IMG/VR virus record: IMGVR_UViG_3300009502_000157
Location: 1-29,201 of that record
Source of the DNA: a virus
Strand: one strand, 5' to 3'
DNA: 29,201 nt
Made by a program: the position numbers and the translations under genes. Under the pieces are notes generated by a model. It was not told the DNA's origin, did not search any database, and saw only the letters and a list, made by a program, of their open reading frames with translations. Positions 1 through 23,393 of the stretch are shown one piece after another. Each line of letters begins with the position of its first letter. Positions within the stretch are counted from its first letter, which is position 1.

Positions 1-3000
1 CCTCATACATAGCATCTCCACGGGTTGCAGGGGCAGAGAGAATCATCTCTACCTGAGTGAGTTCCGGGTCAGTTCCTTCTACAACGGTAACACCAGCCCC
101 CGTGTGTTGCCGTGCCAGTACAAAGTTGTTCCTGTTGATGAACCCAAGCCCGAAACCAAAGATTTCACATTCAATGACGTAATCGAAGTCATTGAAGTAC
201 TGCCCACCGGAAGTCCCTGTGTAGTAGGGACTGATGGTGATATCAATAGCAGATTCCGGGACTACATAAGTATGGGCATCCTCTTCACCAAGGATACAAG
301 CATCGGCACCCCCGCCCCTACGAATGTAGAGAGTCTGCTGTGTAGCATTCTTCTTGAGAAGATTGACAGGGCCCGGCACCAGCGGAGTGATCCTATCTGA
401 GGCATAGGCTCCTGAATGCCCCGCAGCAACATTGTTCACATAATCCCGACGTTCGTAGACACCATAGAGCCGAGCAATCCCCTGGAACGGCGGAAGCTCA
501 ACACCCCACATCCCATACCCAAGGTCCGAAGACACAACAGTGGGGTCATGGATCTTGCGTGCCATGTAGCAAGCTTCAGGAGGACCAGTGATCGTAGAAC
601 GAACACCATAGGGCAACATAGGGCTTGATGCCGAATCATACAGCATGGGGTACACGGCATTGGAAGCCGGTGCTGTGTTGTCTTCCCCACCCATGATGTA
701 GAACGTCTGCTTCGTTGGATCAATGTTATCCGAGAACAAGTGATTGATCCCAGGAAGGATGGGGTCCGTCGAGCTTACCATTGTGTGGTAAGGGATATCC
801 TGACGGCCGAACCGGGGCATGTACTCTGGGGGTACTGCATACCCTAGTCTCGGTACAGAGGCTCCCGTGAAGAGATGGGCACCATCCTTGACGTTTCCAT
901 TGAGGTAAACGGAAGCTCCCATAAGGGAGTCTGCAATCCCAACCGTCTGCCCCTTGAGAGTCATCCGGTGAAACTTCATGGGACGGAAGATGACTGTCTT
1001 GGAACCCTTGTCTATGAAGAGTTCATGTTCACGGTCAATCTCGGAAAGTCCTACAACGGCTCCACCATAGTTAGGGGCATCCGGGGCATCCAAACCGAGA
1101 GACGGGAGACGGTTCCAGAGTTGAACGTGGGCAGGATCGTAGAGCCTCTCCAGGGAAGGGAATCCAGCTTCGGTACAGAAGGCAGGGTCCACGTCAGACA
1201 TCTGGTTACGGACATGAGAGGGGTCTCCACCCATGAGGGAGAATCTCAGGATTGATTCTGGGATTCTAAGGGATGCCCCACGGGCCGGTCCCCACAAGAC
1301 AGTGGTATCCAGTACAATCTTAGACATGAACGTATCAGAGCTTGGTGCAAGAGTACCAAGATTTGCACCGTTCCACGGATTACTGAATGTACCGTCATTG
1401 TTTTGAAGGTCTGTAAATACCACCATGGCATCCGGCATTCCACCAATGTAACTGGTAGCAACTCCCTGTGCCATGTACTGGGACCGGAGTTGGAGCTTCA
1501 TGGTTACAGTGGGGTTGTCAGTGAGAGTAACAAAACCCTCACCCATAGCCTTCACCCTGATAAGGGTGGGGCCAATGGAAGATTGGACAGTGTACTCTGC
1601 AATCTTCCCAGCCCCTACAACCTTGAACACACCATTGTTGTATTGGTTGGTTATGTCACCTGTGAGAACCATGTAAACTTCAGAAGAGTTACCTGTGTTG
1701 TCTCTTCCATTGTCAGTCAACATTCCCCATAGGGTCCGGGTACCTTCCAGGAGGGGGTTGGTAATACCATCAGACGGGTCATTGGAGAATACATTTCCGT
1801 TCTTGTGGTAAAAGTTACCATCAAGATCGAAATTGAGACCTACTTCAACATCCCAGATGGTGGGGTCAGTGGTAGGTGCGAAGAGAGTACCAACTGCCAT
1901 ACTCAGGGAGATGCTCAGGTTGGGGTTGAGCAACGTCCCTAGAACGATGAATGGCTTCTCAAAGTTGGATTCCACCCTGGGGTACATAGGCCCAGGATGC
2001 TCAGTAACGGACTCTTCGTAGCCCGCAGGAGTCGTGAACCTACCCCCCATCCAACCATCCAAGAGGGGTCCAGGAGCACTAGAACTGTTCCCGGAGCCCC
2101 CTACAAACCGAACTCTCCAAGGGTGCTGTTGACCTGTAGTATCCGTGGAATACACAGTCTTCCACATCTCCCTAGGAGTTAGGAAACGTACCGCCTTTGG
2201 GTTAGGGCTCTGACAGAAACCAGAAAGTGCCCCATCTTGGCCTGAAGTCCCATTACCACCAAGGTACAGGTTGATGACTGCACAATTCTTCCAGGAGGTA
2301 GAGCTAATACCTGTAGGAAGGAATCCCGAAGGCTGGAAGTCTGCCCCAACGGTCCATTGAAGTGCCACGTTTGCATCGAACGTGGTTGCTGTGTACCCAT
2401 TGGGGGTCAGAGGGGAAGAGGGGTCCAGAAGCAGGGAGATGTCCCCCTGGGGTGCCGCAGAGTCAGACCAAATGGTCCTGATCCCATCCGGCCCGTCTAC
2501 CTGTCCAACCCAGTTAGGTAGGGCACTAGACGTGAAGTTGTGGAAATAGGATGCCTCAGTAGTCACTACACCAAAGGTATTCCCACCCGTCCCAGACTTC
2601 TTGGGGGTGCTCCTCAAATCTCCCTTGATGAGTGCAGCTACCGCAGCCTGGAGAATCTCCTGGTGATCCCAGTCCCCAAAAGTGATAGCTCTACGAAGAT
2701 CAAGAATATCGGTCTGAATAGTCTCATCAGAGTACAAGGATTCCCGAGTGCTGTAGAGCACTACAGGAGTACCCGCAGGGTGTCTCCGAGCCAGGGTCCC
2801 TGCCCGACCCCTTTCAGAGATAGCAATGGTCCCACCCGGCACATTGGCCGAAGTGAACGCAATGATTTCCTGAGAGACTCCAGTACCCAGAACCAGGAAC
2901 CTCTTGGGGGAACTTGTGAACAGAGCCGGGTCACCAAGGGCAGATCCCGAGAGACTCGTGATAGCTACGTTCCCGAGTGTGGCAGGACCCAAAGCCCCAG

Positions 3001-3961
3001 TCAGTGTTCCAAGAGTCAGAACCCTAGCCCCAGACCTGGGATCAGGGAGAAGGTAGGAAGAGGGTGTCCTATTGGTATCCCCATTCTGATTTGGGGAACC
3101 TGTATTGGTTACTGCTACGAAAGGTGTGTTGTTCCTGCGGAACACAGCACAAATCGGGATAGCGTAGGCATATCCATCAGTAGTACCCAGGGTGTTCAGG
3201 TAGTTCCCGTCCCCTGCCCTCCATAGGGAAGGGTCACCCAACTCCGTCCTCATGTTTGCGTAATGGAAGGCAGTAGGGGAAGGTGCCGCTCCCTGAGCAA
3301 AGACACTTGGGTCATCCACACCATCAGGATAGGTTTCCAGAGAGATGGATGCACCAAGACCTGAACCCGAACCTACCACCCGGATACGGTACTGAAGCTG
3401 TACTCTCTCAGTCGTCTCGAATCCGATAGCTGGGTCTTCAATGTCATCCGTGAGATTGGTTCCACCAAACTCGACATTGCCATACTTCCAGAGAGTGCTG
3501 GACGTGGGCTTGTTCACCGTGGAAGGAATGGGAGCAACCTTGGCCTTCCATACCTCCAGGAACACCAAGTCCACACGGTAGTCAGTGTCGGGGGGCGGGT
3601 AAAGCCGAATGGCATTCAGGATGCCATCAACCATTCCAGTGCCCGCTACAGGGAGTACCCAACCATTGACATTGGCAAAGAGAACCTGGGAAAGCTCATC
3701 CGTTACTTTCCGGCCGAAGTAGAACAGGTTGGTTGCCCTCGGATCGAAGGAAAAGTCATCCATCGTCCGGGACGGGTCAATGAAAAATCCTGAATGAGCC
3801 TGATCCCTGACTACCTGGGCAAGGTTCTCCCAAGCCACCTGTTGAGACAGATTGAGCTCTGCATCCAGAGGGGGTTTCCCTGCCTGCCAGACCACCATTG
3901 TGAACTGCCTAGCAAGGGCATCAAGAGTACGGGAAACACCGGGGGCAAAGTCTTCGGACAT
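1..3961 (-). CDS. Giant tail-appendage/baseplate protein, C-terminus cut by window edge (paralogue of the 12681-16043 product)
   Basis: The frame opens at an ATG (3961-3959) and stays open to base 1. That gives at least 1320 residues, with the C-terminus outside the window. The start follows an AGGTG/GAGGA ribosome-binding stretch in the 55-base gap after the 307-aa gene. Residues about 28-40 read GKPPLDAELNLSQ, residues 134-144 FLEVWKAKVAP, then a RVQLQYRIRV segment, AIPICAVFRR and DILDLRR near 428-434. All recur in the same order in the 1120-aa protein, so the two are paralogues. Around residue 375-395 is an ERGRAGTLARRHPAGTPV segment of a type I recall from phage tail proteins, absent from the paralogue. 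The remainder is Gly/Ser/Thr/Pro-rich and beta-like, with a PEY...F...MGGEDN motif encoded near 675-840. The G-P-x-LDAELN start recalls N-terminal domains of phage appendage proteins such as DUF4815, but that is from memory. I infer a virion protein attached to the baseplate; its exact role is unknown. Confidence 0.85.
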   Translation of the reverse strand, partial: MSEDFAPGVSRTLDALARQFTMVVWQAGKPPLDAELNLSQQVAWENLAQVVRDQAHSGFFIDPSRTMDDFSFDPRATNLFYFGRKVTDELSQVLFANVNGWVLPVAGTGMVDGILNAIRLYPPPDTDYRVDLVFLEVWKAKVAPIPSTVNKPTSSTLWKYGNVEFGGTNLTDDIEDPAIGFETTERVQLQYRIRVVGSGSGLGASISLETYPDGVDDPSVFAQGAAPSPTAFHYANMRTELGDPSLWRAGDGNYLNTLGTTDGYAYAIPICAVFRRNNTPFVAVTNTGSPNQNGDTNRTPSSYLLPDPRSGARVLTLGTLTGALGPATLGNVAITSLSGSALGDPALFTSSPKRFLVLGTGVSQEIIAFTSANVPGGTIAISERGRAGTLARRHPAGTPVVLYSTRESLYSDETIQTDILDLRRAITFGDWDHQEILQAAVAALIKGDLRSTPKKSGTGGNTFGVVTTEASYFHNFTSSALPNWVGQVDGPDGIRTIWSDSAAPQGDISLLLDPSSPLTPNGYTATTFDANVALQWTVGADFQPSGFLPTGISSTSWKNCAVINLYLGGNGTSGQDGALSGFCQSPNPKAVRFLTPREMWKTVYSTDTTGQQHPWRVRFVGGSGNSSSAPGPLLDGWMGGRFTTPAGYEESVTEHPGPMYPRVESNFEKPFIVLGTLLNPNLSISLSMAVGTLFAPTTDPTIWDVEVGLNFDLDGNFYHKNGNVFSNDPSDGITNPLLEGTRTLWGMLTDNGRDNTGNSSEVYMVLTGDITNQYNNGVFKVVGAGKIAEYTVQSSIGPTLIRVKAMGEGFVTLTDNPTVTMKLQLRSQYMAQGVATSYIGGMPDAMVVFTDLQNNDGTFSNPWNGANLGTLAPSSDTFMSKIVLDTTVLWGPARGASLRIPESILRFSLMGGDPSHVRNQMSDVDPAFCTEAGFPSLERLYDPAHVQLWNRLPSLGLDAPDAPNYGGAVVGLSEIDREHELFIDKGSKTVIFRPMKFHRMTLKGQTVGIADSLMGASVYLNGNVKDGAHLFTGASVPRLGYAVPPEYMPRFGRQDIPYHTMVSSTDPILPGINHLFSDNIDPTKQTFYIMGGEDNTAPASNAVYPMLYDSASSPMLPYGVRSTITGPPEACYMARKIHDPTVVSSDLGYGMWGVELPPFQGIARLYGVYERRDYVNNVAAGHSGAYASDRITPLVPGPVNLLKKNATQQTLYIRRGGGADACILGEEDAHTYVVPESAIDITISPYYTGTSGGQYFNDFDYVIECEIFGFGLGFINRNNFVLARQHTGAGVTVVEGTDPELTQVEMILSAPATRGDAMYE

Positions 3962-4016
3962 TCCTCACCTACTGACAGGGATAGAACATAGCCACTCTAC
4001 CTACCTGGGGAGGATA

Positions 4017-4940
4017 TTAGAAGATGACTGCGTAGCTCAGGAGATAGATTGCAGCGGGCCAGAAGTTGAAGAACCCTAGCCGAAACCGAGTTAAGGTTGC
4101 CCCACCACAACCACAAGGGAGCGGGACATTCCGGGTCAACCACCCACGGAAGCCTCCGAATTCATCAAACAGACCTACCATGAAGACCCAATCATAGAAG
4201 AAAGCACCGGACATGAACCCAATCTCCATACTTCCACTGGAGTTTTCACCATCCAGGAAGTACCGCATGGCAGGGTCATTGACTACACTTCCAGGAACAT
4301 AATCAACCACTTCATCCGTGGAAATGAACTGACCGATTCTCCAGTCCACAATTACTTGGGGTGCTCCCGCAGGCCGAGTAGCAGAGATATCAATGACTTC
4401 AGTGATAATGGCTCCGGGCACCATAGGGAAAGCTAGAGAAGGTATAGCAGAGGCATCAGTCTGACCGTAGTTTGCAGCCAGAAGACACACACTGTTAGGT
4501 GCCGAACCCTGTGGGGCCGAAGCAGTACCTCGCCCTATCTGCATCCTTGGCCTGACCGAATGAGTCCCACCCCCCACAATGGGATCAAAGTCAATTGTCA
4601 CAGCCATAGTCTTGGAAAGACTATCTATGTCTACGGCTTCAAACAGTGGGTTGTAGGTGACCCCTACATATCCAAGGGATCGGTACGGGGGGAACCATAC
4701 CTCTTCATACATGAACTTGGGGATGTCTCCAGCCCCACCATGAGGGAAGAGATGGTTGGGATGGGCAGGGTACTCCGAAGCCTCTACCGGAGCAAAGGCT
4801 CCTGGAGGGGCATCAAAGAAGCACTTACCCGTGATGTTGGCTAGCTGGTCAAAGTCCGTGAAGAACACACCACCTGGAAGAGGGGGAGTGTTTTCCGCAG
4901 TCTGGGACAAGACACCGTTGAGTGGGCCGTAGTATCTCAT
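4017..4940 (-). CDS. Hypothetical virion protein with hydrophobic C-terminus (307 aa)
   Basis: I do not recognise the family. The ATG overlaps the TAA stop of the 1518-aa gene by one base (TAATG, 4938-4942). A GAGGA ribosome-binding site lies 7 bases upstream, inside the upstream coding region, so translation is probably coupled. The protein is rich in Phe, Gly and Pro and has no signal peptide. It has a PCGCGG segment near residue 275. Residues 289-307 form a run of about 19 residues without charge (GFFNFWPAAIYLLSYAVIF) that could be a membrane-type segment or a buried strand pair. Lying between two giant appendage genes, it is most likely an adaptor, cap or small fibre component. That is inference from context only. 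It ends with TAA, 55 bases before the next start. Confidence 0.8.
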   Translation of the reverse strand: MRYYGPLNGVLSQTAENTPPLPGGVFFTDFDQLANITGKCFFDAPPGAFAPVEASEYPAHPNHLFPHGGAGDIPKFMYEEVWFPPYRSLGYVGVTYNPLFEAVDIDSLSKTMAVTIDFDPIVGGGTHSVRPRMQIGRGTASAPQGSAPNSVCLLAANYGQTDASAIPSLAFPMVPGAIITEVIDISATRPAGAPQVIVDWRIGQFISTDEVVDYVPGSVVNDPAMRYFLDGENSSGSMEIGFMSGAFFYDWVFMVGLFDEFGGFRGWLTRNVPLPCGCGGATLTRFRLGFFNFWPAAIYLLSYAVIF

Positions 4941-4942
4941 TA
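4938..4942 (-). promoter_or_regulatory. TAATG stop/start overlap between the 1518-aa and 307-aa genes
   Basis: The TAA stop of the 1518-aa gene shares its last A with the ATG of the 307-aa gene. The ribosome-binding site (GAGGA) lies within the last codons of the upstream gene. This arrangement commonly gives translational coupling by re-initiation. Confidence 0.7.
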
Positions 4943-7900
4943 CCAGTTCCTCGGTCCAGGGTCTTTGTATGTCACTATGACATTGAAGAGAGAGTCATTC
5001 AAAGCAGCCACACCATCTGAACTAGACTTTACCGAGATTCTATGACGAACCAAAGAACCACCCACAGAAGGAATTCTTGATGGTGAAGTCCACCTATCAA
5101 CACTCAAGGAAACATCAGCCACCAAGTTCTGAGGATTGTTGGTCCCATCATCATATACCATTGCAATAAGAGGGGTGACAGTCGGTAGTCCTGGAGTTTC
5201 ATTAGCCATGATAGCGTCTACCAGAAGACCAATTCTCTTGGTTGCCCCCAAGCCTCCGGTAGGGGTAATACCAATTGTAACAGAAAGAAGTTCGCATCCC
5301 GTTGGAAGAGGTATGTCAAAGAGTAGGAATTCACCACCTGGGTTAGTGTTATTCGTCCAAACATCTGCCGATGCAAAACCATAATTCCAAGTATCAGTTG
5401 TGAATCCCTTCCTAGCAGACATTAGAGGAAGGGATAGAATTACCGCCCTACCACCCTGTTCATAATTGTAGGTTTTACGAGACCAAAAGGAGCCATCATT
5501 GCCAATAGCCGCAATCTCTCTGAGAAGTGGGGTGTCAGTAATAAGAAGACTCTCCGGTGCGAAAACTCTCAATGGGAACTGACCATGAATCTTCCCGCCC
5601 ATATCGGTTCTTGTATCAACCCCGCTGAATAGTGCCAGAGCAGTAGAATTTGCTTCCCCCCCTGTCATGAACACATTGTAAGGAGTAAAGCTAGGTGTGA
5701 TTACAGAAGAGAAAAGGGAGTCCTTAATGAACATCCCATATTCAGGGATAGCCTGATCCCCCCTAAACCTACTACCTAGTCTCTGTGCCGTATGGAGTAT
5801 GATTGACCCTGTATCTCCAGGATTAAAACCAGGGGAAGAGCCATCAAGGCAAAGGACAGTCAGGTACTTCTGATGGGCACCAGCAGTATTCTCCTCTGCG
5901 TTTCTCACCATCAATAGGTTATGTACAGAGCTAGGGGCCGAAGGAGTAAGAGACAGGACAGTTGCCAAAGTGGCTTGTGGTACAATGTGTAAAAGCCAAA
6001 TACCATTGGTAAGGACAGTCGTGATCTGAAGCTTAGTGGGACTTATGACTATGAAATCATAAGACACGGGAAGAGTAGGAGCAATATTCTCCCACATTGG
6101 ATTCATGGATAGGAAGTCATACCTGTTGACATTGGGACTTTGAGCTTCTGCTACAATATGCCCCAACCCAATCTTTTGATGGGATGTGATAACATCATCC
6201 CCCCTAAGAGTAAGGCTAGCAAATGAACCACCCCAGAAGGTACCATCTGTTCCCTGGAAGTACCCTTGGTTGATTGGGGAGTGGTAAACTCTACCGATAG
6301 CATCAACGGACCACACTGAAGAGTTTGAACCGTCTACACTCCTGTAAGAGATACTCTGAGCGAATGCCCATTGGTTCTCATCAGTCTTAGCCGCACTCCT
6401 ATTGGAGTAGATGTTGAAAGCACTGTAAGAAGCATTGGGTGCAAAAGCATAATCGAAACCGAATACAGAAGTGCCCTTCATCCTGGGAAGTGTGACTAGG
6501 GGTGCCCCATATCGAGATGCAAAATTAGGTCGATAGAAGGATGCCGTAACATCAGTGATGGGTGCGCCACCAAAAGTAGCGGCAACACCCATGAAATCTA
6601 CAAGATGAACTGTGCTAGTATCTGCCCCATCCAAGACCTGGATTACATAGTAACCTTCAAAGTTCATAGCCTTGAGGGTTGGGCTCCCCAAATAAACCAT
6701 ATCCACACCAAGGGACAGGTTTGTAAAAGGGCCTGCACTCCAGAATAGATGAGCCGCTAGTTTGATCGAGTCCGAAACAGCCGTGACACCTGTTTCAACA
6801 TAAGTAAACGTGGAAGAAACACCATCTCCCTGAATAGGGCTCCTGTCCAGGAACCCCGCTACAGATTTAGCAATAGCAGTTGTACTCTCAACAAAGTCAA
6901 AACCAATGGCAAGGAAATTGTCAGAAGTTGCTCTGAAGTGAGTAGCTGTGGGGTCAATCGTAGGGGTAGAGAAAGACCTAGATGCCTCAACGGCCTCACC
7001 TGTAAGATTGATTGTACGCCCTACTCCTACAGGGGGTGTAACCCCATTGTTGTAGGCATCATTCAGACTGTAGTTCACTATCCTTGTAGGAGTCAGGGAT
7101 ATTGACCCGTCAGGTGCCATACTGAAGTCAATACCCGAAAACTTCAGATCAGAGAACTTCTTGGAGGCTCCCCTGGTTGTATCATAGATTGGGTTTACCG
7201 CTGGGTTCTTGCAAAGAACCACATGGGTAGTTGCCGAAGGGACAGGGAAGGGAAGACCACCCCTTGGCCCCCCTGAACAAACACCATTAAAGGTGAGTCT
7301 ACCGGCACCAATGTTGTAGGAAGTGCCGTTGTACAGGTAAGGCCCCAACCAGCTAGTAAGAGAAGTATCCCATACATACAGATAGCCCGTGTACGGGGCA
7401 CTACCATAGGGGAAACCATCAGGGTCAGAGACAATGAGTGTCCCAGGGAGTCCTGCCCCGCCTGGGGTCCAAGACACTATGCTTGGGAAGATGACCCTGC
7501 CACCCAAGGCATCTGACTGTTCATATCCAAGGCCAATGGCATTGGACTTTGCAGAACCCCCAGTAACCCGGATGCCATTCTTCTGTTGTCCTTCCTCCAT
7601 TGAGGAAGGTACACACGCTACGAAGAAGACCATCTCCCCACGGGGATTGTTCTTCACCGTAAGAGTAGTAGCCCCTGAAATCCAGAGAACAGAATCCTTG
7701 TCATTGTAAATAGGTGGGTGGGACAGTGTTACCAGACCATTGGCATAGTCAACACTGATGGACTGTGCAGCCGTGACAGAGGAGTCAAGAATTGCATTAT
7801 CAAGGTCATAGATAGGGCGGTTGTAATTAGGGACAAAGTCTGTACCTACCAGTTTGGCAGGGTACAGAACCATCCTGAACCCGAGGTCCAGAAGGCTACC

Positions 7901-9496
7901 AGGGTCTTCATTATGCCCGTCTGTGCCTCTCCCCAAAGTATTGAATATTGCCCTATCTGCTCTAGCAGGAGTACTACCTGCCTGAACAGCATAGGTAGCC
8001 TTGTCTAGTGCCCTCCCACTAGTCCTGGGAGGAATGATATTCGTAAGCCGAGTAGCCTCAACAGCATCAGCCCTGTAGGCATCTGAATACCTGGGAGAGT
8101 AGAACAGGCTTGTTACTGTATCATGTGTGGTGAAACGAACCCTGATATTGGAACTAGGCCCGTAAACAGGACCCGCACCATCAACCTCATACCCACCACC
8201 ATAAGTTACAACCCCTGTTACGGGATTTACTTCGGGTAGACGACGCAGAGTGATCTGGTTGTAGGTAGCTCCTGGAGTAATAGTCTGAACTCTAAACCAA
8301 CCCATGAGGGTCTGGTTCCCACCTTCAATGATATGGGAACCTGTGGTATCCACGTTCTCAATACCATGGATGTGAAGAATGGTCTTGTCATCTACAAGAT
8401 CACCAATGTTAGTGATGTCCGTGTGGTCCACCCAGATATCCACTGTTCCCAGAGGGATGGCATCCATACCCGGAGAAGCAGTGGTGGTACTGGTGACATA
8501 CCCCCAAAGGGATCGGGTCGCATCCAAAGGAGAACTAGAGACCAGAGCAGGGCCCCTTGGAGTAGGTACAGGGAGGTCTACTCCAGAATTGTAAAGAGTA
8601 GGTTCTCCTGTTCTTAGAGGCTCAAGAGGCTCAATACCTCCACCAAGCCATGTTCCTGCAAGTATGTTGGAACCAAACGGGGGGAAGAACTCCCCGCTAG
8701 CAGACTTCTCTGGAGGGAGAACCGCATAGACGAGTTCCTTCCCTACTTGTCCTGAGCCTTGAATCGCAATTACCCTGGCGACTTTAGGGACAAGAAGAAG
8801 AACAGAACGAGTTACATTAATAGCCCCTGAACTATTGAAGTAGGTGCTAATCCTCTTTGCAGAGTCCAGTGTAAGAACAGAACCCGTCAGATCAGTGACT
8901 CTGAAAATCTCAAAGTAAGAACCGGGAGTGGTAGGGATAAGAGCATTAGCCCCAGGAACACATTCAGGGCTATCCACCCCTGTGTTCCTGATCACCACAT
9001 ACAGACCCCCATCAGGTATGGCATTGATGCCGTACCCCTCTGCGATGTCTGCAAATGTACCAAGAGTCAGAGTGTTTGCTGCAAAGTTCACGTTCCAGAT
9101 ATGAGTGGAGTAGGTGGACTTCAAAGTCCCACCAATTACATCGAACGAAATGGGGTGACCAATGAGGGACTGACCCTTGGTGCCGAAGATGTTGGTGCCG
9201 TAGTTGTAAGGGTTAAACTCCAAGTCGGGAAGACCCGGCATACCCAACTGGGATTCAACATTGGATACAGGAGGGGCTACCCCCGTATCCTGAATACCAC
9301 CTATGGAAGCCCTGTAACCATAGGAAAAGGAAGATGCCCATGATCCTGCAAACTCAGCAGGAAGGGGGTTGGATAGCACATCCTCTGGATTGCTGGTCAG
9401 ATGAAATCGAAGAGGCTCCTGGGCAGGAGTCAGAGTCGAGTTGGTCTGGGCAGCGTTCTCAAAGAACTTCCTGACCTTATCATTCAGGTCGGTCAT
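4940..9496 (-). CDS. Giant tail-fibre-like / baseplate appendage protein (1518 aa)
   Basis: This is a long open frame with a GGAG ribosome-binding site about 8 bases before the ATG at 9496. The N-terminus (residues 1-50) is hydrophilic and helical-looking. The rest is a Gly/Ser/Thr/Asn-rich beta-type sequence with no transmembrane segments. Near residues 808-850 there is SLNDAYNNG...GRTINLTGEAVEAS. This resembles the LQDAYDNG...I...GAV.I motif often seen in stalks of phage tail fibres (recalled family knowledge). A PEYG motif followed by MTGGEAN is encoded at about 5649-5752; a similar pair occurs in the >=1320-aa protein. The C-terminal 150 residues have alternating strands (FDIPLPTGCELLSVTIGITPTGG) typical of a fibre head or Ig-like domain. 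The stop overlaps the next start. I call it an appendage protein by composition and context; no enzymatic motif is visible. Confidence 0.82.
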   Translation of the reverse strand: MTDLNDKVRKFFENAAQTNSTLTPAQEPLRFHLTSNPEDVLSNPLPAEFAGSWASSFSYGYRASIGGIQDTGVAPPVSNVESQLGMPGLPDLEFNPYNYGTNIFGTKGQSLIGHPISFDVIGGTLKSTYSTHIWNVNFAANTLTLGTFADIAEGYGINAIPDGGLYVVIRNTGVDSPECVPGANALIPTTPGSYFEIFRVTDLTGSVLTLDSAKRISTYFNSSGAINVTRSVLLLVPKVARVIAIQGSGQVGKELVYAVLPPEKSASGEFFPPFGSNILAGTWLGGGIEPLEPLRTGEPTLYNSGVDLPVPTPRGPALVSSSPLDATRSLWGYVTSTTTASPGMDAIPLGTVDIWVDHTDITNIGDLVDDKTILHIHGIENVDTTGSHIIEGGNQTLMGWFRVQTITPGATYNQITLRRLPEVNPVTGVVTYGGGYEVDGAGPVYGPSSNIRVRFTTHDTVTSLFYSPRYSDAYRADAVEATRLTNIIPPRTSGRALDKATYAVQAGSTPARADRAIFNTLGRGTDGHNEDPGSLLDLGFRMVLYPAKLVGTDFVPNYNRPIYDLDNAILDSSVTAAQSISVDYANGLVTLSHPPIYNDKDSVLWISGATTLTVKNNPRGEMVFFVACVPSSMEEGQQKNGIRVTGGSAKSNAIGLGYEQSDALGGRVIFPSIVSWTPGGAGLPGTLIVSDPDGFPYGSAPYTGYLYVWDTSLTSWLGPYLYNGTSYNIGAGRLTFNGVCSGGPRGGLPFPVPSATTHVVLCKNPAVNPIYDTTRGASKKFSDLKFSGIDFSMAPDGSISLTPTRIVNYSLNDAYNNGVTPPVGVGRTINLTGEAVEASRSFSTPTIDPTATHFRATSDNFLAIGFDFVESTTAIAKSVAGFLDRSPIQGDGVSSTFTYVETGVTAVSDSIKLAAHLFWSAGPFTNLSLGVDMVYLGSPTLKAMNFEGYYVIQVLDGADTSTVHLVDFMGVAATFGGAPITDVTASFYRPNFASRYGAPLVTLPRMKGTSVFGFDYAFAPNASYSAFNIYSNRSAAKTDENQWAFAQSISYRSVDGSNSSVWSVDAIGRVYHSPINQGYFQGTDGTFWGGSFASLTLRGDDVITSHQKIGLGHIVAEAQSPNVNRYDFLSMNPMWENIAPTLPVSYDFIVISPTKLQITTVLTNGIWLLHIVPQATLATVLSLTPSAPSSVHNLLMVRNAEENTAGAHQKYLTVLCLDGSSPGFNPGDTGSIILHTAQRLGSRFRGDQAIPEYGMFIKDSLFSSVITPSFTPYNVFMTGGEANSTALALFSGVDTRTDMGGKIHGQFPLRVFAPESLLITDTPLLREIAAIGNDGSFWSRKTYNYEQGGRAVILSLPLMSARKGFTTDTWNYGFASADVWTNNTNPGGEFLLFDIPLPTGCELLSVTIGITPTGGLGATKRIGLLVDAIMANETPGLPTVTPLIAMVYDDGTNNPQNLVADVSLSVDRWTSPSRIPSVGGSLVRHRISVKSSSDGVAALNDSLFNVIVTYKDPGPRNW

Positions 9497-9555
9497 CTTC
9501 TAACTCCAATTGGGTACAGGTCTGTCACTTTGAGGGTCTGATAACCCGTCTAGTG

Positions 9556-12500
9556 TCACGGAACAATATCCATACCTATGATGCCACGGCAATTACTCGT
9601 GGTCCCACTCTCAGGTGCTCCCGTAAGGAAATCCAAAGCCTTACCACTAACGGAGTCCTTGATGATGACTTTGACCAATACGGGGCAATCAGTGTTATCC
9701 GGTGCTGGGTTCAAGAAGAATGCAGCTACAGGACCCACATTGATCTTCACTTGACAGTAAACATACCCGTATTTCGGGAACACAGTGGGACTGTCAAATG
9801 TATCCAAACCTGCTACTTGACATCCAGCACCGTCAAGAAGAGGATCTTGCTTGCTTGGACCAGCACCATCAACTCTTCCAACATCCATCCAGGTTGTCAA
9901 CCCTGGGATTTTCACCATGATTGCTAATGCCAAAGACCCAGGGCTACCACCCCCGGTATAGACAAAGTCATTCAGTTGAAGACCATGAAGCCTCAACTTG
10001 AAGTTCTTGAGTCCTACTGCCGTAACTCCGACATTGAAGGCCCGTACATACTGACGGTCCCCCGTACAACCTGAATAATTAGGTTGTGCCATGAACTCAG
10101 AAGCAAGATTGGGCCTGTACCCAACCGAATAATTGTACTGGGGGTACAGCAGGATACCGCAGGAAGGGAATGGGGCAGAGGAACCCTCGGCAATCGGAGG
10201 ATCTCTGGCAGGAAGTCCTGCAACTTGGGCCTCAGTGTTCAAAGCTGCTACACTAAGACTATGAGTGTGGCAGTAGCCAGCAAGCCATGAAGCATTGTCC
10301 CAATCATCCCTGGCTGAATTAGGCCGTACAGGTACCTGGATAGGGGGTGTCCCTGGAGGAAGTCCCGGGCCTACCAGAGGGACTGCCGCAGCTACGGGAA
10401 CGCCTGCAAAAGTAGTCCATTTGCTATTGTACCTGTAAGACTCATCCAGGAAGAACTCTGCCATATCCTTTGTGGTGTTGTACAAAGTAGTAACGGGTAC
10501 ACCACCACTCAAGAAGTTCCCGTACTCAGGAAGAATGTCAGTAGTGTACAGGACTGAATGGTACAGGATCTTATCAGCCCCAGACCTAGGTAGGTCTCCT
10601 AGATTCACAGTAGGAGTCGGAGTGCCTTGTAGGAGGGTCTTGCGTGCAAAGACACGTACCTTTGCATTCTCCGTGAAGGTAATTGGACTCCTTGATGTAT
10701 CCCCAATGGGGTATACTGAATCCTTACTGTACGCATCCGATGTGAGAACGGGAGAGTAGGTACCAGAAGGCCATGTACCACCTACAGTGTCATACAAGGC
10801 TGGGACTGGGTACTCAACCCTTTGGAATCTAGGGAGTGGAGTTGTACTGGTGGGCACAATAAAACTGGAACCATAGGATGCTGTAGACAGGAACAAGGGG
10901 CTTTGTGTCTTGGCATACCAAGCAGTCGGATCAAGCCCTCCAATACCTACATCACTATTAACGTAAGTACTGTCAAAGAGCCCATGAACCGTTATTGTGG
11001 TATCAAGGGCGAGTGCGTTAGACCTTGCATCTGCATCTGCCCACGCATTGTTCCGGGGAAGGAAGTATGCAACCCCAGAATTCAGAACGGCACAAGTTGG
11101 GAGTGCCCATGTCCCACTCTTGGTCAGGTCATATACTGAAGCACCATCCAATGTGGGAGATACTGCCCCATCAGCATCCTCAGTGACTTCACCCCTAAAG
11201 GCATGATAGCAGGATGCCGCTGTGCCACCCACAGTTGCAAGGTTGTCTACCCCAGAGATGTTTGCCCAGTCTACCAAAGACGTAGACCAGACATCTGTAC
11301 TTGCTGGGGCTACACCATCCCTGACATACCGTTCAAACGCTTGCTCAGTCTTGAAATGTACCAGGGCATAGGAACCATCCATCCTGAGAGGAGCGGATAT
11401 AGCTCCCGTGAACTGGAACCGATGCCTGTACCGTGCAATCTGGTATCCCCAAAAGTCCTTGGAGAAATTAGGATAATCCCCAGCCCTGGGGAGAGCTATT
11501 GAAGCATGTCCAGGCAAGGGGTTATCATCGAAGAATCTAAGCTTATCTACTAGAGGGGTGTAGAGCAGATTCACATAGTCAGACAGGTACGGGAGGCGGT
11601 ATCCCAAGAAGTTCCCGTCAGTACCCCCACCATGACCTGAAGAAGTAGCCCCAAAGATAGGAATACCCTTCCCCGTGATCACAAAAGACTGAGCAGAAGG
11701 ATCAAGTAGGAGCCGTACCTGTCCTGCCAAAGGATCAGGAGCCGCAGGAGCCGTCCCACCAACCCTAGCTGCCCCAGTGTGAATCTCATTCAGTTCGAAC
11801 TGTCCCGCAGCCTTACCAGGGAAAACATACGGACTTGGGGGAGTACCGGACCCTGGGGTGAAGATGCCTCCAGGATGCCCGTCACAACCACTCCCACCAG
11901 AGAAGCCTTGGCCGAGAAGGATTGCTCCAACGCACCTATCCAGGACATCAGCTTCGGAAGCCGCAGGGCTAATACTTGTGAACGTGCTAGACGGCCAATG
12001 AAGCAGTGCCAACACCCCCCTGTCAGCCGGGAAGCACACTCCAGACACTACAGAATAGAGTGCCGCTGCCCCCGCATTTGGAAGGATTCTCCATGTAGCA
12101 TTCGTGGAGAATACACCACCAGGAGTCAAGGTACAGAATCCAGGAACCGTTGCCCCAGGACCACCACCCGTGTAAGTACCAGCACCATCAACAATGTTGA
12201 AGGTTGGATCAGTTACAGGATCTACTCCAAAAACCGTGAAGGCACCACCGGAGACAACCCTTCCCGGTTGAGGATCAGACCAGTAGTAAGGATACACAGC
12301 ATCAGCAGTCTGTGTCGAATCCCAAGGCCACGCATAGGAAGCCCTGTTAGATTGGACATCCATCTTCAAGTAACCCCAATCAGGGATACCCGAAATGGTA
12401 GACCCAAGCCACATCAAAGGAGCATTCCCAACCGTGGGTGGGATCGGTGGAATTAGAGCCGAAAGGTCATCCAAGGCTCCTTCTACATCTTCCACGAAGT

Positions 12501-12678
12501 AGCGAAAGAAGAAGTCCCTATAGGTGATATCCTCAGATGAATGAGCGGCTGGACTTGTGATGTGTGCCGCAAGACCATCCTCAGAATTACCTGTTACAGA
12601 TCCCGGTTCTACGGAAGAACCGGAAATCATTCCAGGGCCACCACCTACAGAAGTCAGACCGTCAATTCTACGGGGCAT
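9556..12678 (-). CDS. Giant virion-associated protein, unknown family (1040 aa)
   Basis: The gene starts 2 bases after the TAG stop of the 1120-aa gene, with a GGTGAG ribosome-binding site that overlaps that stop. It ends with TGA, 59 bases before the 1518-aa gene. The first 50 residues are Gly/Ser-rich and look disordered. A short acidic helical segment follows (residues 51-75), and then a long beta-type, Gly/Pro/Ser/Thr/Tyr-rich body. I count 13 cysteines, about three times the density of the neighbouring 1518-aa protein, spread along the whole chain. It has a CHTHSLSV segment in the C-terminal third and a DILPEYGNF motif encoded at about 10519-10539, like the PEYG of the 1518-aa protein. 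It does not share the GKPxLDAELN platform of the flanking paralogues. It is probably a tail or baseplate appendage, judged by size, composition and neighbours only. Confidence 0.82.
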   Translation of the reverse strand: MPRRIDGLTSVGGGPGMISGSSVEPGSVTGNSEDGLAAHITSPAAHSSEDITYRDFFFRYFVEDVEGALDDLSALIPPIPPTVGNAPLMWLGSTISGIPDWGYLKMDVQSNRASYAWPWDSTQTADAVYPYYWSDPQPGRVVSGGAFTVFGVDPVTDPTFNIVDGAGTYTGGGPGATVPGFCTLTPGGVFSTNATWRILPNAGAAALYSVVSGVCFPADRGVLALLHWPSSTFTSISPAASEADVLDRCVGAILLGQGFSGGSGCDGHPGGIFTPGSGTPPSPYVFPGKAAGQFELNEIHTGAARVGGTAPAAPDPLAGQVRLLLDPSAQSFVITGKGIPIFGATSSGHGGGTDGNFLGYRLPYLSDYVNLLYTPLVDKLRFFDDNPLPGHASIALPRAGDYPNFSKDFWGYQIARYRHRFQFTGAISAPLRMDGSYALVHFKTEQAFERYVRDGVAPASTDVWSTSLVDWANISGVDNLATVGGTAASCYHAFRGEVTEDADGAVSPTLDGASVYDLTKSGTWALPTCAVLNSGVAYFLPRNNAWADADARSNALALDTTITVHGLFDSTYVNSDVGIGGLDPTAWYAKTQSPLFLSTASYGSSFIVPTSTTPLPRFQRVEYPVPALYDTVGGTWPSGTYSPVLTSDAYSKDSVYPIGDTSRSPITFTENAKVRVFARKTLLQGTPTPTVNLGDLPRSGADKILYHSVLYTTDILPEYGNFLSGGVPVTTLYNTTKDMAEFFLDESYRYNSKWTTFAGVPVAAAVPLVGPGLPPGTPPIQVPVRPNSARDDWDNASWLAGYCHTHSLSVAALNTEAQVAGLPARDPPIAEGSSAPFPSCGILLYPQYNYSVGYRPNLASEFMAQPNYSGCTGDRQYVRAFNVGVTAVGLKNFKLRLHGLQLNDFVYTGGGSPGSLALAIMVKIPGLTTWMDVGRVDGAGPSKQDPLLDGAGCQVAGLDTFDSPTVFPKYGYVYCQVKINVGPVAAFFLNPAPDNTDCPVLVKVIIKDSVSGKALDFLTGAPESGTTSNCRGIIGMDIVP

Positions 12679-12680
12679 GT

Positions 12681-15600
12681 CTACTCACCCGCCATCAGGA
12701 GAAGGTTCTTGGTTCTGTAAATCGCAGCCGAAGTGAAGTTACCGGCAGGAGCCACAGGATCAGGTTGGTCAGATACAAAACCAATCACGTTCAAAGCACT
12801 CACGATTGAGTACCTGGAGAACACTACTAAGAGTACTTCACCCTTACGGAACAGAGGACAATCAGCCGTTGCCCTTGCCAGGACCGGAAGGAAGACCTTG
12901 TGAGTACTGGCTCCCGTGAGAGGCTGTGAGCCCATTGCAGGACGATAATCCTTGGGGTCTATGTAGTCGTAGTAGGCACGCATCTCTGCGTCCATGATGG
13001 GACCATGTGTACCACCAAGCTTGATCTCTACTGTCCCATCCATCTGTACGAAGGGGAACAATGAAACCAACCCTGCCTTGGTGTTGAAGTCAGAGATGGC
13101 AAGCTGGGAAATCCCACAGAACTCCCAATCACCCCCGAAGGTGTATTGGAGAAGAGGATTGTCCCTACGGTTGTTCGCACAAGCAATCTGTGCCAGGGGC
13201 TCTGCGTAGGGGTAAGGCAGTTCCACAGATCCAGGGCCCATGTTCCCCGAGTAGAGTACAGAGCCAACCACCAGGGGCTTGATTGTCAGCAGGGACGGCA
13301 GAGGATTCGGCCCCCCCGTGATTGGGAACTGCTTGGACCCTACGGTCTGAGGAGCATTTGTCCTGTAGTAGACAGATACCTGATACCCGAACACACCGGG
13401 ATTAGGGATCGGGTCTTGAGGGTAGTAATCCACTTGACAGAGGGCATTGGGGCCCGATGGGAGAGGAGCCGCCAACTTCAGAAGCCTTGATGAGCTACCG
13501 TACTCTGTAGCAGCGAGATCAACACCTACAGGGTTTGCTGTAACCGTATCTGTAACTGTAATTCTCCCACGTCCAATCCGTCGAGATAGGGCAATGGTTT
13601 GAATATCTCTACATACCACAAATTCAGTGACAGCTAAGTCACCCCCACCTATAAGGCAAGATGATTGTTCCAGGGTAACTTCCCGGAAACCTTCTCGGAA
13701 GAGAGGTTGAGGGACCCATGTGGAAATCATCTCCGGGGGACGTTCAGCAAGGTTATTCTCTACAAGAGAGCCTTGAGGGAACACCACAGGGTCCGGTGCG
13801 GGGATCAGATCCGGGTTGTCAGTAAGCCCGAATGCAGGGGGGTAGGTAATCTCCAGGTCAATGGATAGTGTCCTGGGACTTCCATTATCCCCAAGAACAG
13901 CATTCCCTACCATTGGGTAATTCATGCCACTGTTAGTGCCACCATCAACAGTGCATCCATTCACCCCGAGGGTAATCTCAATCTTGTCAGTCCCAATACC
14001 CTCGATCAAATCAATCTGGACATCCCGACCGAAGGGGTTTGCCATGCCTACACAGAGCCCATCATCATGTACAGCATCAAACAGGTCTGTGACCATTGTA
14101 CCAGAAGGCCATAGATCCTTTACTGCATGGAGATAGGCACCCCCAGGAGTCCAATCTTGGAGGGAGTCTGCACGGAGTATTGAGAAGTCTATGGTGATGA
14201 CATCTCCAGTCATCCACTTAGTAGTGTGCCCATCAGGTCCAGCCGCAACTTTGATCCCTAGAGGATTGAGAGCCGGGTTTGGGTTGATTACAAAGTTGTG
14301 TCTAGCCACAACGGGCTGTGACCCAAAGCGCCGAGAGATGTGATCGAAGTCCCGGATGGACTCACCCCTGGTGGTATCCCCAGATCCCTGTGCGGGGATA
14401 CCATCATGTCTTCCAATTTCATTGCAGACAATGAACTGTGTAGAATACCCACCAGTCCCTTGTCCAATATCTTCCAATTTGTCTTCGGCACAAAGCTGCC
14501 AAGTCCGAACCGTCCCATCCATGAGGGACTGAATCTGGTTCTGAAGTTCTGCCGTCAGGTCAAGTCCCGTAGGAGACACATGGCGACGAAGATCAAGAAC
14601 ATCAGTTCTCTCAATCACGTCATGGAAGTACCCATCAGGTCTATCAGATGTGGCAGGGGGGATAGCTACAAGGCTACCTGCCGGAAGATGTAGGTGAGTG
14701 TTGTTGAGACCTGCATGGTTATGGGCTAGAGCACCACTCACGTTCCCATCAGGGTTGAAACCACCTTGAAGGGTGGCATCATCACGCCGAAAGACAAAAC
14801 AGATTGGGATTGCAAAGACAAAACCATCCACCGTTCCGAGGTCAATGGCTGCATTCCTGGAACCATCTCCAGCTACCCAGAGTCCATTGTCTACGATCCC
14901 GTAAGCAGTTGCATCCGAAGGGGGGACAATCGTAGCATTGTCAGCCGGGATGAAATGATATCCAGCTACAGGTACACTCTGGGCACCCTGAGCTAGAATC
15001 CCAGGGTTAGAGAAACCATCCGGTTCAATTCTCGGCTCCACACCTAGAAGTGCCTGCCCATATACCCTGACACGGTACTGAAGTTGTACCCTCTGGGCAC
15101 ACTCAATCCCAATCATGGGGTCTACAGAGTCATCATCCAGCCAGACACTAGGATTACTGTTGACATTCCCATGCCGGTAGATTTGAGTCTGGTTCGGCTT
15201 GTTGGGCCTGTTGGCACCACCCGCCATAGGGAAGGGTCCAGTACCCCCACCATTGACAGGGATATTCACTGTTGAGGAAGTCAGGAGAACACCGTTCCCA
15301 ACCAGACCCCCATTGACAGCCGTTACCGTGACTAGATATGTACCGTAAGAATTGGCAGAAACGTAGGTGTTGAGCCCATTGATCGGATTGTTGATGGCAG
15401 AGGCAAGGTTAGCAGCCGTAGTGGTGTCATTCACACCTACCTGGAACTGGTTGGCACCGGGAGCCCCTGCTACCGCATTGAGAGTGACAGCACCACCACC
15501 GATAGCAGTAATGTCAATAGTCACCCAGTCCACACCAGGGGCCGGAAGAGTCAGAGTGATCCCGAACGTCCCACTTGCCCTTGGGGATGGTGCAACGAAA

Positions 15601-16043
15601 GCTCTCCATACTTCCAGGAAGGCAAAGTCCGTTCGCTTGGTAGACCCTGGAGGCCCTGGAGGTAGAGGAGCCCCTGAAAGCTGGATAAGGTTCTTCCCAG
15701 GGGTACTGGTATTGGTGTATTCAAACACCAAAGGAGAACCATCCACTACTACCAGTCTCTTGTTGATGCCGAAAGCATTGGGGACTGCCCCCCCAACAAA
15801 CTCATAGTCATCCAGGGCAGACCCACGAGTCTGAGGCCGAATGAACCCAGACGGGAGTTGCTTCTCCTGAATGAGCCTGGAAAGCTGCTCTAGGGCATCC
15901 TGAGCAAGGTTGAGCTCTGCATCCAGAACCGGCTTCCCTGACTGAAACACCAACCCTTCGATAGCCCGTTCCCCAGGAGGCAAATCCCGAGATACGGTCG
16001 TCGGAGTAGCTGGAATATCGTAGTACTTCCTACGGATGGGCAT
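12681..16043 (-). CDS. Giant baseplate/tail-appendage protein with shared N-terminal platform (1120 aa)
   Basis: The ATG at 16043 has a strong AGGAG ribosome-binding site 6 bases upstream, inside the last codons of the homing endonuclease gene (14-base overlap). Residues 34-48 contain FQSGKPVLDAELNLAQ, 142-152 FLEVWRAFVAP, then RVQLQYRVRVYG, FAIPICFVFRRDD and DVLDLRR. The same motifs occur in the same order in the protein that starts at 3961. Between FLEVWRAFVAP and the YRHGNV segment lies an extra Gly/Ala/Thr-rich beta domain (about residues 155-280) that the paralogue lacks. A histidine cluster (AHNHAGLNNTHLH) lies near residues 435-450. The ELQNQIQSL helix after DVLDLRR may help oligomerisation. 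By family resemblance and context this is a virion protein whose N-terminus docks on the baseplate or tail; the rest may be a fibre or peripheral structure. It ends with TAG. Confidence 0.85.
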   Translation of the reverse strand: MPIRRKYYDIPATPTTVSRDLPPGERAIEGLVFQSGKPVLDAELNLAQDALEQLSRLIQEKQLPSGFIRPQTRGSALDDYEFVGGAVPNAFGINKRLVVVDGSPLVFEYTNTSTPGKNLIQLSGAPLPPGPPGSTKRTDFAFLEVWRAFVAPSPRASGTFGITLTLPAPGVDWVTIDITAIGGGAVTLNAVAGAPGANQFQVGVNDTTTAANLASAINNPINGLNTYVSANSYGTYLVTVTAVNGGLVGNGVLLTSSTVNIPVNGGGTGPFPMAGGANRPNKPNQTQIYRHGNVNSNPSVWLDDDSVDPMIGIECAQRVQLQYRVRVYGQALLGVEPRIEPDGFSNPGILAQGAQSVPVAGYHFIPADNATIVPPSDATAYGIVDNGLWVAGDGSRNAAIDLGTVDGFVFAIPICFVFRRDDATLQGGFNPDGNVSGALAHNHAGLNNTHLHLPAGSLVAIPPATSDRPDGYFHDVIERTDVLDLRRHVSPTGLDLTAELQNQIQSLMDGTVRTWQLCAEDKLEDIGQGTGGYSTQFIVCNEIGRHDGIPAQGSGDTTRGESIRDFDHISRRFGSQPVVARHNFVINPNPALNPLGIKVAAGPDGHTTKWMTGDVITIDFSILRADSLQDWTPGGAYLHAVKDLWPSGTMVTDLFDAVHDDGLCVGMANPFGRDVQIDLIEGIGTDKIEITLGVNGCTVDGGTNSGMNYPMVGNAVLGDNGSPRTLSIDLEITYPPAFGLTDNPDLIPAPDPVVFPQGSLVENNLAERPPEMISTWVPQPLFREGFREVTLEQSSCLIGGGDLAVTEFVVCRDIQTIALSRRIGRGRITVTDTVTANPVGVDLAATEYGSSSRLLKLAAPLPSGPNALCQVDYYPQDPIPNPGVFGYQVSVYYRTNAPQTVGSKQFPITGGPNPLPSLLTIKPLVVGSVLYSGNMGPGSVELPYPYAEPLAQIACANNRRDNPLLQYTFGGDWEFCGISQLAISDFNTKAGLVSLFPFVQMDGTVEIKLGGTHGPIMDAEMRAYYDYIDPKDYRPAMGSQPLTGASTHKVFLPVLARATADCPLFRKGEVLLVVFSRYSIVSALNVIGFVSDQPDPVAPAGNFTSAAIYRTKNLLLMAGE

Positions 16044-17274
16044 TGACTACTCCTAGAGGAGCTTTCCCAAAGATTTCGGGGTGCGTTCTCAAGTTCCTAC
16101 AAGGCCGTTCCCATAGAGGGATTCTTGGGGCATACCTGGACTCTACCTGCGACCACACAACATCCCGTTGGCATAGGACAAACACCCGGCCCACCTGAGC
16201 TTCAAACTCCACCATCTTTTCTGAGGCTCTCCGGGCATACGTCCCATCGGGGTAACCCCACCCCTTCAATTCCACCCACCCGGCAGGAACCAAATCTTCC
16301 ACTGGGTCGTGCAGGTAGAATTCAGGGGTGTAATGTGCCCCCGATAGGAGTTTGAAGACCTCCCCCTCGTATTCGTACCTGATCCCCAGGAGCATCAGCA
16401 CCCGGCAGAAGTTGGCCTCCAGTGTGGACCGGGTGTAATGGGGAATGCCCTTGCGGAACCCACAGATGCCTCTCCCGCCACCCTGGGGAATCAAAGTACC
16501 ATTCGCAATGCGAGAAGCTAGACTTTTAGCACAAGCACCTGGGGTTTGGAAACCAACCTTCTCCCCTCGATCCAGTCTCCGACGGACACCCGCAGATAGT
16601 TTCTCGGAATGTCCAGGTCTTTCTCGGATAGCCGCCAAGGATACCCGCCCCCTCTCCCCACGTCTCTGAGAGTCCTCGGAAGTGATATTATGAGGCTTGC
16701 CAAGCCCTCCCCGAGAGATCGCAACCTTATGCTCTTCCGAGAAGTGTTTTCCCTTCCAGGGGGCTGACTCTCTGAGTTTCTCAGATAGTGCCTCCCGTGC
16801 TCCTGGGATAGCCCACCTAGCCTTGGCAGCGTCAACCATCTTCGCCCTGCACTCAGCAGACCTAGCCCTAGACCCGGGGACATCCAACAGAGCCCCAGGG
16901 TATTGCTCCAGGTATTGCTCCTGGGTGAAACCGTGGTCTGCCTGAATGTGTTGGAGAAGTCGTCTCCGAAGCAACCCACAGGTCTGACAGGCTAACATTG
17001 AATCCGTGGTTTTCCCCTTCTTATACTTCAGGGGTGTACCCCTGCATGAATCACACTTCACATAGAAGGCCCTCCCCGTATAGCCCGTCACAGGAGCACC
17101 ACAGGTCGAACATTTTACTTCCCGCCCCTCGATGGGAACCTCTAAAAGAGTCCCAGGGTACTGAGCGAGAAACTCCTCCCGACTCAAACCATGCACATCA
17201 TGGACATGCTTGGTGAGCCTGAGAAGATCGCTTCGGCTACATAGGGGACAGGTGAGTCGAGTCGGGGTGCCCAT
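16030..17274 (-). CDS. Free-standing homing endonuclease: zinc fingers + NUMOD3-like + PD-(D/E)XK nuclease (414 aa)
   Basis: Two MucR-like C2H2 fingers are visible: C9/C12/H23/H28 and C96/C99/H109/H114. Each is followed by a near-copy of the same tail (LSREEFLAQYPG and FTQEQYLEQYPG). Between them is a zinc ribbon, C55/C58/C74/C77. Residues about 172-195 (WKGKHFSEEHKVAISRG) match the NUMOD3 DNA-binding element of phage homing endonucleases. The C-terminal domain has LEANFCRVLMLLGIRYEYE (E286), YTPEFYL (E318, where Asp is usual) and VELKG (E335, K337), the layout of a PD-(D/E)XK nuclease. It would cut a phage allele lacking the gene and spread by repair. The gene sits between two structural genes, 40 bases after one, and overlaps the next by 14 bases. 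Only a weak GGGG ribosome-binding site, buried in a hairpin, precedes its ATG. The product is clearly not structural. Confidence 0.88.
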   Translation of the reverse strand: MGTPTRLTCPLCSRSDLLRLTKHVHDVHGLSREEFLAQYPGTLLEVPIEGREVKCSTCGAPVTGYTGRAFYVKCDSCRGTPLKYKKGKTTDSMLACQTCGLLRRRLLQHIQADHGFTQEQYLEQYPGALLDVPGSRARSAECRAKMVDAAKARWAIPGAREALSEKLRESAPWKGKHFSEEHKVAISRGGLGKPHNITSEDSQRRGERGRVSLAAIRERPGHSEKLSAGVRRRLDRGEKVGFQTPGACAKSLASRIANGTLIPQGGGRGICGFRKGIPHYTRSTLEANFCRVLMLLGIRYEYEGEVFKLLSGAHYTPEFYLHDPVEDLVPAGWVELKGWGYPDGTYARRASEKMVEFEAQVGRVFVLCQRDVVWSQVESRYAPRIPLWERPCRNLRTHPEIFGKAPLGVVNAHP

Positions 17275-17284
17275 GCACTATGAT

Positions 17285-17315
17285 ACCCCGATCAACTACC
17301 TAATGATGTAGGGGT
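17285..17315 (-). promoter_or_regulatory. Hairpin covering the only ribosome-binding site of the homing endonuclease gene
   Basis: ACCCC (minus strand 17315-17311) pairs with GGGGT (17289-17285), and ATCA (17307-17304) pairs with TGAT (17294-17291). The asymmetric internal loop has 3 and 1 bases, and the apical loop has 9. The GGGG arm is the only Shine-Dalgarno-like run before the ATG at 17274. No U-run follows, so a terminator is unlikely. The effect on translation is inferred. Confidence 0.45.
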
Positions 17316-17950
17316 CAGAAGGAAAGTCGCCAAGTAACCGTCAGAATTGATGTGTTGGGTTTTGCGATGCAGGCGAATGTGAGATAATTAGCCAGGATGT
17401 CATAGAGAGTTAGATCCCTTGTGAGGTTTCGGGTAGGGAACGTGTCGGGGTTGGGATGAGGGGTGAGTGAGTCATCCAATGTCCTCATCAACCCCATCTC
17501 GTTCAGGGGCCCTACTGCTTCGGCCTGACCATACGTTGTAGTGAAGTCAACGATATTGGTGGGAATCGAAGAAGCTGCCCCAGTACCATCCCTGAAGACC
17601 CTAGTGGAGAATGCCTTACGGGCAATCTCATTGTTCAATCTACGCTGCCTGGGGTCCGGTGCGTCGGGACTAAGAAGTGAACCCGTGGCACCTGTACCTA
17701 CCCCAAGCATGGTCAAACCAGCCGTACCGGCTCTCCCAGCCTGGAACATCATTGCACAGAGGATCGAAGCGTCCAGAGTGATGATATTGTCTAATTCCCG
17801 GTACTCCATGAGTTTATCAGTAAGAGCATCCCTCATCTCAATGATGAACTTGCCCTTGGCTGAACCCATCAGGAGTTGATCCTCATACCTAGTTTCCATA
17901 GCACACTTGAACCCCTGGGAAGGTTGATGGATTCTATCCGAGTGGAACAT
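17315..17950 (-). CDS. Virion structural protein, VGTG/NEMGLM type (211 aa)
   Basis: Residues 1-70 look helical and charged. From residue 80 the sequence reads MLGVGTGATG (VGTG at 84-87), then RRLNNEIARK (103-112), TNIVDFTTTYGQAEAVGPLNEMG and GLM (153-155). This order, VGTG, then L.NEI.RK, then E.GL(M/F), is a pattern I recall from small phage tail and baseplate-associated proteins; I cannot give a family name. The ATG at 17950 directly follows an 8-bp inverted repeat and an AGGGTG ribosome-binding stretch. An internal ATG at residue 18 (METRYEDQ) has a poorer ribosome-binding site. The gene lies in the same frame as the 1786-aa gene upstream, separated by two in-frame TAG codons. It is followed after 40 bases by the homing endonuclease. 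Confidence 0.78.
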   Translation of the reverse strand: MFHSDRIHQPSQGFKCAMETRYEDQLLMGSAKGKFIIEMRDALTDKLMEYRELDNIITLDASILCAMMFQAGRAGTAGLTMLGVGTGATGSLLSPDAPDPRQRRLNNEIARKAFSTRVFRDGTGAASSIPTNIVDFTTTYGQAEAVGPLNEMGLMRTLDDSLTPHPNPDTFPTRNLTRDLTLYDILANYLTFACIAKPNTSILTVTWRLSF

Positions 17951-23356: not shown

Positions 23357-23393
23357 GCGAGCCCTCAACCTGTGAGGGGATATAGGCAAACCG

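Follow-up and report, generated by a model that had tools for sequence, protein, structure and literature searches.

The window examined here is the whole 29,201-nt viral record IMGVR_UViG_3300009502_000157 (positions 1 to 29,201), in which all of the long genes lie on the minus strand, in the order J, I, H, G, F, B, E, D, C, A (Table 1). Two giant genes, A and B, lie immediately downstream of the genes for the baseplate J and gp25-like proteins in a J-I-H-G-B-E-D-C-A arrangement, and relatives keep the order B-E-D-C-A, with E 30–41% identical. Both giant open reading frames are as the initial annotation described them, the one at 1–3961 running past the window edge; the visible part of A is 1320 residues long, the full protein measuring 1830–2150 aa in close relatives and the orthologues in huge phages 1330–2150 aa.

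Table 1. Genes and domains of the window
Feature	Position	Strand	Description
Gene A	2..3961	-	large baseplate/tail protein with N-terminal shared platform; ORF of 1320 aa, C-terminus beyond window end
A platform	2612..3961	-	residues 1-450; weak B homology on to ~570 (window ~2250); blastp, hhalign
A N-terminal GKPPLDAELNLSQ helix	3782..3889	-	part related to DUF4815 N-terminus; hhalign E 5e-5 to 4e-6
A-only inserted beta-barrel domain	2753..3016	-	residues 316-403; absent from B in alignment
Gene C	4017..4940	-	307 aa; small protein immediately before A
Gene D	4940..9496	-	1518 aa; matches to relatives mostly in front ~650-900 residues
Gene E	9556..12678	-	1040 aa; conserved neighbour, comes after B
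Gene B	12681..16043	-	complete, 1120 aa; paralogue of A
B platform	14469..16043	-	residues 1-525; weak A homology on to ~610-730; model pLDDT mostly 85-95
B-only inserted domain	15210..15578	-	residues 156-278, ~120 residues; tail-sheath type alpha/beta domain
B N-terminal GKPVLDAELNLAQ helix	15846..15947	-	DUF4815-like
Gene F	16030..17274	-	zinc-finger/endonuclease-like; phrog_22215 and homing-endonuclease matches
Gene G	17315..17950	-	211 aa; phrog_5417; conserved neighbour before B
Gene H	17996..23389	-	1797 aa; large protein, between baseplate J gene and B
Gene I	23732..27166	-	baseplate J-like wedge protein; PF04865 1.3e-12, phrog_6 5e-19
Gene J	27171..28250	-	gp25-like sheath initiator/baseplate protein; phrog_2669 1e-8

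Gene F, which lies between G and B and overlaps the start of B by 14 bases, is absent from the corresponding place in most relatives and is likely a homing endonuclease insertion. Gene G very constantly occupies the position directly before B, with a counterpart in Bacillus phage G as well (L046 3235–3828), and its family, phrog_5417, is one of unknown function. Gene D ranges from 1085 to 2120 aa across relatives; because these match mainly its front 650–900 residues, D may be a variable tail fibre and, judged from sequence, is a better candidate than A or B for a variable, host-facing protein. Profiles of the TssG and P2-I families (PF06996 and PF09684) picked out no wedge partner in the window.

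The similarity between the A and B proteins is, at the sequence level, far beyond chance. Blastp aligned them in two segments in matching order (E 9e-23, 41% over 145 aa, and 7e-11, 35% over 143 aa, the second segment scoring 2e-13 in the reverse search), and profiles built from the two orthologue families aligned with an hhalign E value of 7e-86 over residues 1–450 of A and 1–525 of B. The initial annotation was thus right that the two share an N-terminal platform with its motifs in the same order, and that they are related by duplication, that is, by common descent. Its further statement that they diverge completely after about 400 residues holds in that homology is eventually lost, but the loss is a fading rather than a stop: full-length profiles (E 3e-77) continue in weak alignment to about residue 570 of A and 610 of B, and with shorter A relatives the alignment reaches about residue 730 of B. 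When the back halves were compared without the shared part, no significant profile match was obtained; we rejected homology there, the match seen (E 0.009, probability 4.5%) falling just after the platform.

Each platform is interrupted by a domain that the other paralogue lacks at that place in the alignment. The insert of A resembles 8jov_1, 8rk3_b (480–556) and 8vjh_A at Z scores of about 10 and matches phrog_1101, and that of B resembles 8kee_A (Z 11.1) and the 9cba sheath (Z 10.2), and matches 8fop_T by sequence (E 1.4e-3) as well as phrog_165. A search of solved structures with the B profile returned sheath proteins only, via this inserted domain. A domain of the type inserted in B is also found towards the C-terminus of full-length A proteins (hhalign E 7.6e-7), and a short B protein of 875 aa in one relative (G009) lacks the B insert. 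Family assignment from Pfam and PHROGs alone was abandoned, as it gave nothing for A and B beyond weak matches on the inserted domains.

The fold of the platform offers more. AlphaFold2 models built from 61-sequence alignments reached a pLDDT of 86.5 and pTM of 0.83 for B, and 79.8 and 0.75 for residues 1–700 of A. In Foldseek searches the top matches of both were two chains from the baseplate of Staphylococcus phage phi812, 9eui_Q and 9euj_G (E 1e-4 for 9eui_Q with A; 7.5e-3 and 1.9e-2 with B). The B model superimposed on 9euj_G at Z 8.3 (165 residues, 3.6 Å), on 9eui_Q at Z 8.2 and on 9euf_0 at Z 6.4, over 155–165 residues, and the A model on 9euj_G at Z 6.0; scores of 6.0–8.3 are supportive, yet near the level of common arrangements. 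The aligned part of the phi812 protein spans residues ~4–178 in all three chains, and from this shared range we infer that all three represent one protein, ORF65, the name given to chain 9euf_0. The role of ORF65 in the phi812 baseplate is taken from the PDB entry titles only. Profile alignment points the same way, with the N-termini of seven DUF4815-type phage proteins aligning to the platform N-terminus at an hhalign E of 5e-5 (4e-6 when gp673 of phage G is included) and the DUF4815 helix region, of the type rpLQqaELNemQ, falling on GKPxLDAELNL.Q, so that the N-terminal helix of that family is present in the platform. A Pfam search with A and B gave no match at E ≤ 1, and PF16075, the DUF4815 profile, stayed below the Pfam cut-off on every relative, the best values being 3.8e-7 for phage G gp673 and 0.013 for gp211. 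We regard the platform as remotely related to the N-terminus of the DUF4815 tail proteins (Kayvirus TmpG and phi812 ORF65; 9euf, 9eui and 9euj): ORF65 is the best relative of solved structure, the helix motif is shared, the fold of the first ~180 residues seems similar, and DUF4815 genes, like A and B, lie within a baseplate cluster, but only this N-terminal part is matched, neither A nor B reaches the Pfam cut-off, and no paralogous pair was seen in the DUF4815 phage regions viewed.

Weaker structural resemblance, at Z under 8, links the platform to the beta-sandwich shoulder domains of TssK from the type VI secretion system (T6SS) and of the receptor-binding proteins of lactococcal phages 1358 and p2. 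The B model matched TssK 5y0e_A at Z 6.5 over 159 residues and 5mwn, 6giy and 6n38 at Z 4.9–5.1, and the A model matched the phage 1358 shoulder (4l9b/4l92_B) at Z 6.2, a level (Z 5–6.5) that can reflect a common arrangement only. Sequence similarity between A or B and TssK or the 1358 and p2 shoulders was not found, and A and B differ from those proteins in being much larger and duplicated. TssK shoulders dock on the baseplate protein TssG, two trimers per wedge (PMC6300606), and the 1358/p2 shoulder, the baseplate-docking part of those proteins, is the same domain type (PMC7291167). Because of the likeness to DUF4815/ORF65, and since the TssK and 1358 shoulders dock on a baseplate, the shared platform is plausibly a baseplate dock; of the conserved docking parts that the initial annotation proposed, the N-terminal one is thus credible from fold and profile likeness, as something that we infer.

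The nearest named relatives are the uncultured 485-kb phage LR745208, Bacillus phage G and Tunturiibacter phage Tunturi_5. LR745208 carries both genes at 47–48% identity with the whole query covered (47% over the full length of B). Two phage G proteins share the platform, gp211 (sequence profile E 3e-72, predicted fold in BFVD E 9e-22) and gp420 (E 3e-106 and 9e-12, respectively); unlike the window, this phage has an expanded platform set of gp211, gp420, gp423 and gp431 with differing back halves (L047 14173–20205; L243), and gp420 holds two platform copies in tandem. Another phage G protein, gp673 (L244 10350–13427), joins a DUF4815-like N-terminus to endo-mannanase and polysaccharide deacetylase matches, which makes it a possible cell-wall-degrading tail protein. 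Tunturi_5 gp247, annotated as a tail fiber protein, is a platform homologue encoded in the tail-gene region near baseplate genes; unlike in the window, a single copy was detected in the complete 309-kb genome, with a platform ~31% identical or less. Between this protein and the baseplate genes lie two very large proteins, gp245 and gp246 (L045 18283–27559), annotated as regulator of chromosome condensation.

Beyond these, a search of IMG/VR with the platform alignment gave at least 384 relatives, many of which lie on contigs of 200–619 kb. When whole IMG/VR records, some of them near-duplicates, were searched with the platform profile, exactly one A (1330–2123 aa) and one B (861–1311 aa) were present in 46 of 49 related viral records (24/25 and 22/24); the strict rule of one of each is confined to this IMG/VR clade, Tunturi_5, a complete genome, having one detected copy and phage G several. 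The three remaining records (G001, G032 and G033) hold A alone. B is found ~45–50 kb downstream of A in LR745208 (loci L043 and L044), in its near twin G010 and in G021, the B-E-D-C-A cluster of LR745208-like phages being split so that C and A stand away from B and E. Given such a layout, the expected site of B would lie outside the contig in G032 and G033 and near its end in G001, and contig truncation is a likely, if unproven, explanation of the lone A genes.

At DNA level three platform blocks match at 18/18, 21/23 and 17/18 bases, exactly as the initial annotation gave them, all in the same codon phase. Such blocks of 17–21 matching bases could suggest a recent duplication, or ongoing gene conversion keeping the platforms alike within each genome, and codon identity at shared residues is indeed slightly higher within genomes (0.41) than between them (0.36). 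The blocks had been picked by eye, however, as the best available. Of 200 synonymous recodings of A and B, 2 attained an exact run of 18, the longest between the two genes, and all three block scores are equalled by other A–B pairs, of which most join different phages; the matches therefore need no special explanation, and we set them aside as a signal. At the 125 sites with the same residue in both proteins (Met and Trp excluded), 49 identical codons were observed against 45±5.1 expected under independent codon choice, with codon identity flat along the length and no block standing out. Silent sites are saturated in every block, an outcome that the initial annotation had itself named as adverse if seen across the whole platform, and which counts against a recent origin; the slightly higher codon identity within genomes is consistent with shared codon usage.

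Phylogeny bears this out. In a tree of 24 platforms, the B copies, leaving aside the short copy of G009, form one clade (support 0.999 and 100) and the A copies a separate one (0.965 and 96), and the inner groups G002+G005, G003+G007 and G006+G008 recur in both, so that the two gene trees are largely congruent. Identity between A and B is no higher within a genome (mean 35.2%) than across genomes (36.3%), and a tree forcing the A and B of the window together as sisters was rejected (delta lnL 252.6, AU p 0.0005). By the separate, largely congruent clades, the two identity values and the AU result, the duplication is older than the split of these phages. Recent duplication or gene conversion is accordingly highly improbable, and A and B are products of an ancient duplication with no detectable gene conversion. 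The root position and the placement of phage G gp211 and gp420, which group together and were assigned to neither A nor B, carry supports of 42–72 only.

The initial annotation had also suggested that docking parts were held constant with change free elsewhere, and that the pair could be alternative appendages for one baseplate socket; A and B would then be interchangeable host-range modules, with variable tips, competing for the same site. A platform common to both, joined to unrelated back halves, is what this would look like, and phages that carry several receptor-binding proteins typically have N-terminal anchors like this. The back halves are nonetheless conserved. Mean pairwise identity per 60-residue bin, from 50 orthologues each of A and B, runs from 0.33 to 0.63 for A and from 0.37 to 0.62 for B, highest in the platform, and still amounts to 0.33–0.49 and 0.39–0.59 in the respective back halves, the profile of A covering residues 1–1320 and leaving its C-terminal ~500 residues outside the window. 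A hypervariable end was seen nowhere over the whole length of B in these bins, and the combination of a conserved N-terminus with a hypervariable C-terminal half, by which a tail-fibre receptor-binding protein may be recognized, appeared neither in B as a whole nor in residues 1–1320 of A. Since 46 of 49 records hold exactly one A and one B, and with largely congruent trees besides, we consider interchangeable appendages quite improbable. The same fixed gene content and congruence would also suit a single hetero-oligomer, such as a trimer or ring of mixed composition, in which A and B were subunits rather than separate appendages, and paralogous subunits often do form mixed rings; against this, the two genes stand ~45–50 kb apart in LR745208 and G021, and the inserted domains differ, so that we hold such an assembly to be unlikely.

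Instead, A and B are probably structural components of the contractile-tail baseplate, paralogues of ancient origin that have specialised and been kept across a large clade of huge phages. Because nearly all records (46 of 49) carry one of each and the gene trees are largely congruent, they look like two obligate parts, a fixed pair and not interchangeable spares. The shared front half, as a docking module resembling the DUF4815/TssK-RBP shoulder, would anchor each protein to the baseplate wedge, probably in trimeric form, and the unrelated back halves would point outward as exposed, protein-specific structures with different jobs. Both proteins would be built into every virion and specialised to different places, perhaps to two distinct sockets on each wedge. 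The T6SS has two sockets per wedge, both filled by identical TssK trimers (PMC6300606). By analogy, an ancestral shoulder protein might have duplicated and its copies become dedicated to the two sockets, giving two obligate, non-equivalent arms, a tentative extension that we think rather unlikely as it stands.

For a widespread clade of huge phages, with contigs of up to 619 kb, these findings provide candidate identities for two virion proteins that are among the largest and have so far had no annotation, and they link A and B to solved baseplate proteins of the Herelleviridae. In place of swappable appendages they also put forward a testable idea, in which a baseplate dock would have been duplicated and then specialised.
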